Part shown: positions 7,580 to 7,815 of the stretch, piece by piece
Layout of the letters: every line of letters starts with the position of its first letter
Numbering within the stretch: the stretch's first letter is position 1
Assembly: GCF_028621715.1 (NCBI RefSeq)
Contig: NZ_CP117466.1
Location: 692,501-756,500 of the forward strand
DNA: 64,000 nt
DNA from: Paracoccus marcusii
GTDB lineage: Bacteria; Pseudomonadota; Alphaproteobacteria; Rhodobacterales; Rhodobacteraceae
Direction: 5' to 3'
Notes under the pieces: model-generated
The model's input: only the letters and a program-made list of their open reading frames with translations
Told to the model about the DNA's origin: nothing
Database searches by the model: none
Position numbers and translations under genes: made by a program

Positions 7580-7644
7580 TTGACAGAATTTCGATCTGTG
7601 TCAGCCTGTCCCTATACAGCAATCTTTTGAAAGGAGGTGGTCCA

Positions 7645-7701
7645 GTGTCTAGAGTGATAGTGGAGAGACGTTTCGGAACAGTCGGGGGGACCCCGGCCTG
7701 A
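7645..7701 (+). CDS. 18-residue micro-ORF (leader peptide-like)
   Basis: A GTG-initiated ORF of 18 codons (MSRVIVERRFGTVGGTPA) ends in TGA. Its ribosome-binding site is exceptional: AAAGGAGGTGGTCC directly abuts the start, with the core GGAGG 7 bases from it. The peptide is basic in the middle and has no run of regulatory codons that would suggest classical attenuation. I do not recognise it. Whether the product matters, or only the act of ribosome binding, cannot be told from sequence. Confidence 0.5.
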   Translation: MSRVIVERRFGTVGGTPA

Positions 7702-7780
7702 GGGCAGCCCCAAAGGCCACCACCCCTGGTTGGGACCGGACCTGCGTCCGCCCCTAACCGGACCATCTCCTTGGATCTCG

Positions 7781-7815
7781 CGGGCCGCCTCTTGCTGGGC
7801 GGCCCGTTCCTTTTT
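7781..7815 (+). terminator. Rho-independent terminator of the small RNA unit
   Basis: A perfect 9-bp stem CGGGCCGCC (7781-7789) / GGCGGCCCG (7798-7806) with an 8-base loop is followed by TTCCTTTTT. It is one of the clearest intrinsic terminators in the window and marks the 3' end of the upstream RNA. Confidence 0.88.

Follow-up and report, generated by a model that had tools for sequence, protein, structure and literature searches.

Between a Vut_1-family gene (PF02592, 6977-7579) and an L-lactate permease gene on the minus strand (PF02652, 7921-9780), the window, by which we mean the whole 64,000-nucleotide stretch of Paracoccus marcusii DNA analysed here, poses the question of why an RNA should place a long complement of the 16S 3' tail in front of an ORF of only 18 codons and then carry, behind that ORF, an element able to cover it again. 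The original prediction described such an RNA, and all the elements that it named are present where it had placed them. By sequence comparison the locus is a conserved small RNA gene of about 200 nt. The reading developed below, to which we give a probability of roughly 0.55, is that of a translation-gated switch, a stand-alone RNA of the RF01867 type whose 3' arm would hide its own ribosome-landing site and whose peptide would be secondary; translation itself, the gating and the output are what we infer from the comparisons and predicted folds.

Anatomy of the RNA gene and its neighbours

The gene reads on the plus strand, with the Vut_1-family gene as its 5' neighbour and the convergent permease gene as its 3' neighbour. 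Its -35 element would be the TTGACA at 7580-7585, which lies at the conserved promoter place, followed by a putative -10-like CAGCCT at 7602-7607 (promoter span 7580-7607) and a transcription start probably near 7613-7618. The extended Shine-Dalgarno sequence AAAGGAGGTGGTCCAG (7630-7645) ends in the G that also opens the GTG start codon (7645-7647) of the 18-codon ORF, which encodes the peptide MSRVIVERRFGTVGGTPA and ends in TGA at 7699-7701. A structured inner region separates this ORF from the 3' masking element GGACCATCTCCTT (7760-7772), behind which GATCTCG (7774-7780), at a place that pairs with codons 3-6 in other groups, stands directly before the intrinsic terminator, present as predicted with a hairpin at 7780-7807 and a T-rich tail (7780-7815 in all). 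Right behind the stop codon lies the motif GGGCAGCCC (7701-7711), of which the same or close variants occur in many Rhodobacteraceae-type elements of our alignment A1.

For comparison the elements were divided into groups (Rhodobacteraceae type, SH, SHG, SS, KRCHL and other) by rules drawn after inspecting the peptides. A TTG between -70 and -35 of the Shine-Dalgarno sequence is found in all 84 distinct upstream regions of the Rhodobacteraceae type, against 0.36 expected from shuffling, and most lie at -48 to -52. It also occurs above the shuffled expectation in 17 of 25 SHG, 31 of 41 SH, 26 of 28 SS and 13 of 15 other elements, the signal in KRCHL (3 of 7) being weak. A promoter-like site at 7627-7655 was rejected, since it overlaps the Shine-Dalgarno sequence and the TTGACA at 7580 sits in the conserved place. 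Terminators were located with a folding-based finder, which left out four of 208 loci (L103, L110, L139, L140) and replaced an earlier string-based finder that had dropped 69 of the 208, two of them for want of a stop in the sequence. Predicted pairing of the terminator with its own stem averages 0.989 over 87 Rhodobacteraceae-type elements, one of which falls below 0.8, and the group means at equilibrium lie between 0.967 and 1.000; in no group does folding at equilibrium predict a structure that would rival the terminator.

The last result bears on the possibility that the RNA is a transcription attenuator, in which the short ORF would act as a leader controlling the gene behind the terminator, in many Rhodobacteraceae the ribosome-rescue gene arfB. 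An ArfB-like GPGGQ motif does follow on the same strand at 41 of 87 Rhodobacteraceae-type loci, and over all groups it lies 66-237 nt past the terminator end in 39 of 43 cases. It is nearly absent, however, from the other groups (2 of 117 loci: one of 42 SH, one of 15 other, none of 25 SHG, 28 SS or 7 KRCHL), the next gene in the window is the convergent permease, and of three RF-1-domain matches in the window's genome the third, which falls in an arfB-like frame of 155 aa, is 83 kb from the RNA. With no competing terminator fold, which also speaks against attenuation, and with a downstream gene that varies, control of arfB by attenuation is improbable. On the 5' side a Vut_1 gene stands upstream on the same strand at 82 of the 87 Rhodobacteraceae-type loci and at two of 117 in the other groups together, so that neighbouring genes differ between groups while the RNA persists, and no constant downstream gene was found. 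Because the neighbours vary and the arfB-like frame is 83 kb away, we regard the RNA as standing alone, most likely as a gene with its own promoter, of which the -10 element and start are putative, and its own terminator. At many of the loci L061-L090 the ArfB-like rescue gene starts only tens of bases past the terminator, with little room for a promoter.

A divergent branch of the RF01867 (CC2171) RNAs

The original prediction knew of no named RNA family with this layout, and a gathering-level Rfam search of the 64-kb window gave no match. The model RF01867 (CC2171), which Rfam types as Gene, sRNA, nevertheless matches 7621-7805 with 30.3 bits (E 6.2e-5 on 271 bases), and a search of the window's genome with this model returned the RNA locus (E 1.7e-4). 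As the match is significant but lies under the curated gathering cut-off of 75, the window RNA is best described as a divergent relative of RF01867, and a named family at the same locus can thus be given after all. Among 20 loci from several orders, seven pass the cut-off at the same element; 61 of 289 genomes of the class have a match with E up to 0.001, nine of them over the cut-off, and among 14 control genomes a match was obtained in Caulobacter vibrioides only. All 30 class-wide RF01867 loci that were inspected carry AAAGGAGGTG[AG]TC, an NTG codon and a short ORF. The 5' block with the Shine-Dalgarno sequence and NTG-TC is present in the window and in 29 of the 30, L241 having GTGAA after the Shine-Dalgarno sequence.

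The window RNA and the family have in common the 5' block GAAAGGAGGUGRUCCAGUGUCU, a terminal GC-rich hairpin and a similar length. They differ in the peptide and in the helix that closes the 5' region: the helix of the RF01867 model, which joins codons 3-5 to the bases before the terminator, is unsupported in the Rhodobacteraceae type (z +0.6; predicted pairing 0.04), where the Shine-Dalgarno sequence is predicted to be masked instead of codons 3-6 (0.90). By its sequence, then, the window RNA belongs to a Rhodobacteraceae branch that has diverged from the other RF01867 RNAs.

In the cited accounts RF01867 is one line of a table that lists updated structures (PMC11701678), and it serves to label the candidate MH_s33 from Mesorhizobium huakuii (PMC5596092). 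The literature searched gave no recognisable account of a translated CC2171-type RNA, so an earlier notice is possible. For Caulobacter, 75.4% of genes are reported to lack a Shine-Dalgarno sequence, and the same account describes two previously predicted ncRNAs as translated, by which a translated CC2171 is possible, while it finds the regions of most of 133 ncRNAs not to be translated, by which CC2171 may equally be one of these (PMC4117421).

Distribution

By DNA similarity the RNA was found in 36 of 37 genus genomes, its own included (genome G021 was missed), and in none of 24 other genomes of the class. With at most one mismatch allowed, 102 of 149 genomes of the family and 49 of 385 of the class contain a 20-base motif. 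A looser exact 18-position motif, consisting of AAAGGAGGTGRTCC, any base and then ATG, GTG or TTG, was found in 75 of the 398 genomes searched in the phylum, every one of them by hand count among the 135 Alphaproteobacteria (60 of which lack it in exact form) and none among the 263 non-alphaproteobacterial genomes; the reversed-pattern control gave no match. The homologues keep the arrangement of Shine-Dalgarno sequence, ORF and 3' element. Similarity and motif scans found one copy in each matched genome, but L239 (genome G048) has two different members, at C1:805104 and C1:2921849, one of MSHCH type with 68.9 bits to RF01867 and one of MSHG type with 34.6 bits, so that a genome may carry more than one.

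A scan of named contigs, which gives no frequency, yielded at least 118 stretches. Five of these contigs bear non-alphaproteobacterial titles, namely L098 (7833), L125 (5051) and L139 (169) as Gemmatimonadetes or Gemmatimonadota, L201 as SAR92 and L203 as Nitrospinota, and three more are titled only Proteobacteria; two of the Gemmatimonadetes peptides have WAS in common. The five oddly titled contigs may represent mis-binned DNA, chance or a wider range. Four of them are included in the group statistics, L139 having dropped out.

An almost maximal Shine-Dalgarno sequence

The segment AAAGGAGGTGGTCC (7630-7643) leads directly into the GTG ORF. The claim that the Shine-Dalgarno sequence matches the perfect complement of the 16S tail at 15 of 16 positions, the remaining one allowing a G-U pair, holds through the 16S tails of relatives. 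The exact tail CTGGATCACCTCCTTT was not found in the window's own genome sequence, rRNA genes being apparently largely absent from the sequences searched. GGATCACCTCCTTT occurs in three of 41 genus genomes, one of which, L224, has it in a 16S-like context reading CTGGATCACCTCCTTTCT, or at greater length CTGCGGCTGGATCACCTCCTTTCT. A 53-base 16S-tail query matched 237 records of the plasmid collection, each with at least 95% identity, and a Paracoccus aminovorans replicon, among the 15 matches listed, is identical to it at 53 of 53 bases. Exactly matched, the core AAAGGAGGTGRTCC has a single occurrence in the genome of 3.18 Mb. When up to two mismatches are allowed the number of sites rises to 49, but the reversed control then has 37, so that only the full motif stands out. 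The Shine-Dalgarno sequence is thus most likely almost maximal, and would place a 30S subunit on the short ORF.

Predicted masking of the Shine-Dalgarno sequence in the Rhodobacteraceae type

The 3' element at 7760-7772 can, as claimed, pair with 7631-7643 over 13 uninterrupted base pairs, one of them G-U. The minimum free energy fold of the window RNA (-99.0 kcal/mol, z -3.9, none of 200 shuffles as good) closes all 13. Across 85 distinct elements of the Rhodobacteraceae type the predicted pairing of GGAGG with the CCUCC-like 3' element averages 0.90 and reaches at least 0.5 in 79; the six that fall short include a few loci, apparently L080 and L109, in which the folding-based finder chose doubtful terminator hairpins. 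The same pairing has means of 0.00-0.28 in the other groups. Of 87 Rhodobacteraceae-type elements 76 have YRYYTCC in the stretch from the stop codon to the terminator, and in the 84 distinct ones the longest run pairing with the Shine-Dalgarno sequence in that interval averages 9.52 bases against 6.74 for shuffles. In the window RNA the Shine-Dalgarno sequence is accordingly predicted to be masked by the 3' arm.

Two-sided changes between the 3' element and the Shine-Dalgarno sequence are hardly to be expected. The permutation test for this type gives z -2.0 (50 of 2000 as good), a weak value from a test that has little power because the Shine-Dalgarno sequence hardly varies, and RNAalifold does not choose the helix in the 46-sequence alignment A1, where the 3' element falls in shifted columns; the corresponding helix of the other groups does covary. 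Codons 2-7 show no covariation with the 3' element in this type (z +0.6; predicted pairing 0.04). RNAalifold proposes from the same 46 sequences a second long-range helix, between UCGG in codons 10-11 (7673-7676) and the CCGG that borders the mask (7758-7761; columns 46-49 with 147-150), which has a few two-sided changes and, as its partner shares 7760-7761, would compete with the Shine-Dalgarno helix in the window. The alternative fold through ACCACC at 7719-7724, put forward as a competing partner, was rejected, since it is not conserved: the motif is present in one of the 46 rows of A1, that of the window itself, and between stop codon and terminator in four of 87 elements (the window's L001, its close relative L002, L128 and L193).

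Conservation of a 16S-tail complement beyond the usual Shine-Dalgarno sequence might suggest a sponge or ribosome decoy that titrates initiation-competent 30S subunits. Such an RNA would presumably need large copy numbers per cell, and a decoy needs neither a conserved stop codon nor a fixed ORF length; as the gene is masked and, by motif, present once in each matched genome, a bulk 30S sponge is most improbable.

The 3' arm in the other groups

Outside the Rhodobacteraceae type the bases before the terminator often complement codons 3-6, as in CATTGTC/GACAATG, CATGGTT/GACCATG, CATTGC/GCAATG, CATCG/CGATG and ATGAGATT/AATCTCAT, among others. In 110 distinct elements the predicted duplex between codons 2-7 and their own 3' element has a mean energy of -12.15, compared with -8.02 when the partners are permuted (none of 2000 permutations did as well, z -14.6); such permutation tests ignore phylogeny, an effect that the within-group versions reduce but do not remove (SH -6.5, SS -4.2, other -4.1, SHG -2.2 and KRCHL -0.9, the last not clearly supported). 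Of the controls, codons 8-13 give z -3.3, smaller than -14.6 yet not zero, and the 3' region further upstream z -0.2. Runs of at least six pairs are found in 63.2% of 117 elements, against 16.8% with shuffled 3' elements. From 36 SH and SHG sequences RNAalifold chose the codon helix unaided (columns 24-30 with 222-228), and its column pair 27/225 is U-A in 25, G-C in five and C-G in four. At equilibrium, codons 2-6 are predicted to pair only moderately with the 3' element (means SH 0.37, SS 0.27, SHG 0.26, other 0.11, KRCHL 0.00).

Judged by covariation and predicted pairing, therefore, the 3' arm of the Rhodobacteraceae type would pair with the Shine-Dalgarno sequence itself and that of most other groups with codons 3-6, with which it covaries; it is mostly the RNA's own 3' end that would shut the ribosome-landing site, through different bases in different groups. 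The suggestion that the 3' element is an independent mimic of the 16S tail is not supported by this comparison, as in most other groups the arm complements the element's own codons 3-6 and is not anti-SD-like. The same evidence weighs on a role in trans, by which the 3' arm would pair with the Shine-Dalgarno sequences of other mRNAs under the control of translation of the ORF. The arm is CCUCC-like in the Rhodobacteraceae type, and sRNAs with anti-SD motifs, SisA-D, are described in Caulobacter (PMC12559287). However, folding predicts that here the arm takes the RNA's own Shine-Dalgarno sequence as its partner (0.90), and most other groups have in its place one that matches the element's own codons, which leaves a trans-acting regulator very improbable.

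The short ORF

The GTG ORF of 18 codons begins, as described, at the end of the Shine-Dalgarno sequence (7645-7701). The start codon is GTG in 144 of 204 elements, ATG in 54 and TTG in six, counts in which the named-contig scan admitted only A, G or T as first base and the class and family scans were free there. When the class was scanned with the GTG pattern and any one mismatch allowed, 30 of 49 matches had one. In 19 of these the start codon differed in its first base, which was A in 15, T in four and C in none; its other two bases were never affected, and the remaining 11 mismatches lay elsewhere. Among all 60 genus and family loci, whatever their peptide, the ORF has 18 codons in 56, 20 in three and 24 in one; codon 19 in the 55 distinct elements is TGA in 34, TAG in 11, TAA in six and a non-stop in four, with no TGG. 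In the Rhodobacteraceae type codon 19 is a stop in 76 of 80 distinct elements, a set defined with a length rule, and 18 codons are found in 83 of 87, a figure that is partly circular because that rule required a length below 21 (83 of 88 without it, L077 having 24). The length is 18 codons in 22 of 25 SHG elements and 14 in all seven of KRCHL. With their start codon, ORF length and interchanging TGA, TAG and TAA stops these RNAs look translated, and the conserved start and stop codons, beside the predicted Shine-Dalgarno pairing, support the reading of the window RNA as one that sequesters itself and has a short ORF fit for translation.

An obvious reading is that of a small-protein gene, a well-translated mRNA for an 18-residue peptide whose strong Shine-Dalgarno sequence and terminator simply serve expression. 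Start, stop and length are conserved as it would have them, and motifs are common within groups (LERGVGT; KRCHLAGIAR; TW). The peptides are nevertheless unlike each other between groups, and no frame-specific synonymous excess is seen: differences to the nearest neighbour are synonymous in 89 cases against 70 expected in frame 0 and in 84 against 67.5 in frame 2, and the SHG set has 11 in frame 0 against 15.8 expected. None of nine differences among the seven KRCHL elements is synonymous, so that bases rather than residues are apparently kept, and in other groups a covarying RNA helix crosses the start region. We consider a small-protein gene unlikely; selection on the peptide is not clear, and translation of the ORF appears to matter more than its product, the peptide sequence being secondary.

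By eye, neither MSRVIVERRFGTVGGTPA nor its relatives have a long hydrophobic stretch. The KRCHL elements are a 14-codon form in which KRCHLAGIAR is nearly fixed base for base and the 3' mask is less clear than in any other group; their loci (L122, L150, L161, L167, L171, L194 and L205) comprise five Bradyrhizobium titles, one Tardiphaga and one Xanthobacteraceae. Six peptides of the SS and other groups (L047, L051, L060, L156, L166 and L188) have in common a C-terminal (E/G)QP or GGQ-like stretch.

Discussion

In the translation-gated switch that we favour, the Shine-Dalgarno sequence and start codon would leave the polymerase first and the mask would follow some 120-130 bases later. A 30S subunit bound within that interval would keep the RNA open, and the RNA would be translated; a molecule missed by 30S would close and stay silent. 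Such a gate would make translation reflect spare 30S capacity or the speed of transcription, and ribosome occupancy may in turn set the lifetime of the RNA and the contacts of its 3' arm, an output at which we can only guess. It is possible, and we offer it tentatively, that the RNA serves across the class as a sensor of free 30S subunits, each transcript having one co-transcriptional chance and the share of open molecules reading the spare initiation capacity.

Small RNAs with a short ORF and a self-masking start are a kind already known. The type I toxin mRNAs Hok and AapA fold back between their 5' and 3' parts, so that an element near the 3' end covers the start of translation, which then depends on an open form. 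The window RNA resembles them in its predicted closure, and differs in a peptide that is not hydrophobic by eye and is unlike between groups, and in being a chromosomal gene found across a class. rnTrpL of Sinorhizobium, described as a leaderless small RNA with a translated 14-codon ORF from the trpE attenuator (PMC10117765), is likewise an alphaproteobacterial small RNA with a short ORF, though the window RNA, whose ORF is putatively translated, has an extended Shine-Dalgarno sequence and no fixed downstream gene. Extended Shine-Dalgarno start sites are reported from Staphylococcus aureus for mRNAs, small ORFs and a uORF, with long pairing that reaches near the start codon as here; the portion of that account drawn on mentions no 3' mask (PMC13009471). 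Two RNAs of Rhodobacter sphaeroides are known to us by description alone, with no link to the window RNA found: StsR, under RpoHI/RpoHII, was rejected as its identity, being given as a 72-nt RNA (PMC8307010), and Pos19, of 219 nt and in the RpoE regulon, is titled a small coding RNA (PMC5036791). No entry of the P. denitrificans sRNA table, as far as the cited part goes, was matched to the window locus (PMC5107571). What would be new, allowing for possible prior notice, is the class-wide form with its extreme Shine-Dalgarno sequence, the predicted masking of that sequence in Rhodobacteraceae, and the link to RF01867.

A family filed as an sRNA thus reaches across a class and looks mRNA-like and self-masking. 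The extreme Shine-Dalgarno sequence, the near-fixed ORF length and, in several groups, a covarying mask unite the Caulobacter CC2171 RNA, the Mesorhizobium sRNA candidate and the Rhodobacteraceae, sphingomonad and Bradyrhizobium forms as one kind of gene, which would offer a natural system in which translation depends on early capture of a ribosome, in bacteria that often do without Shine-Dalgarno sequences.
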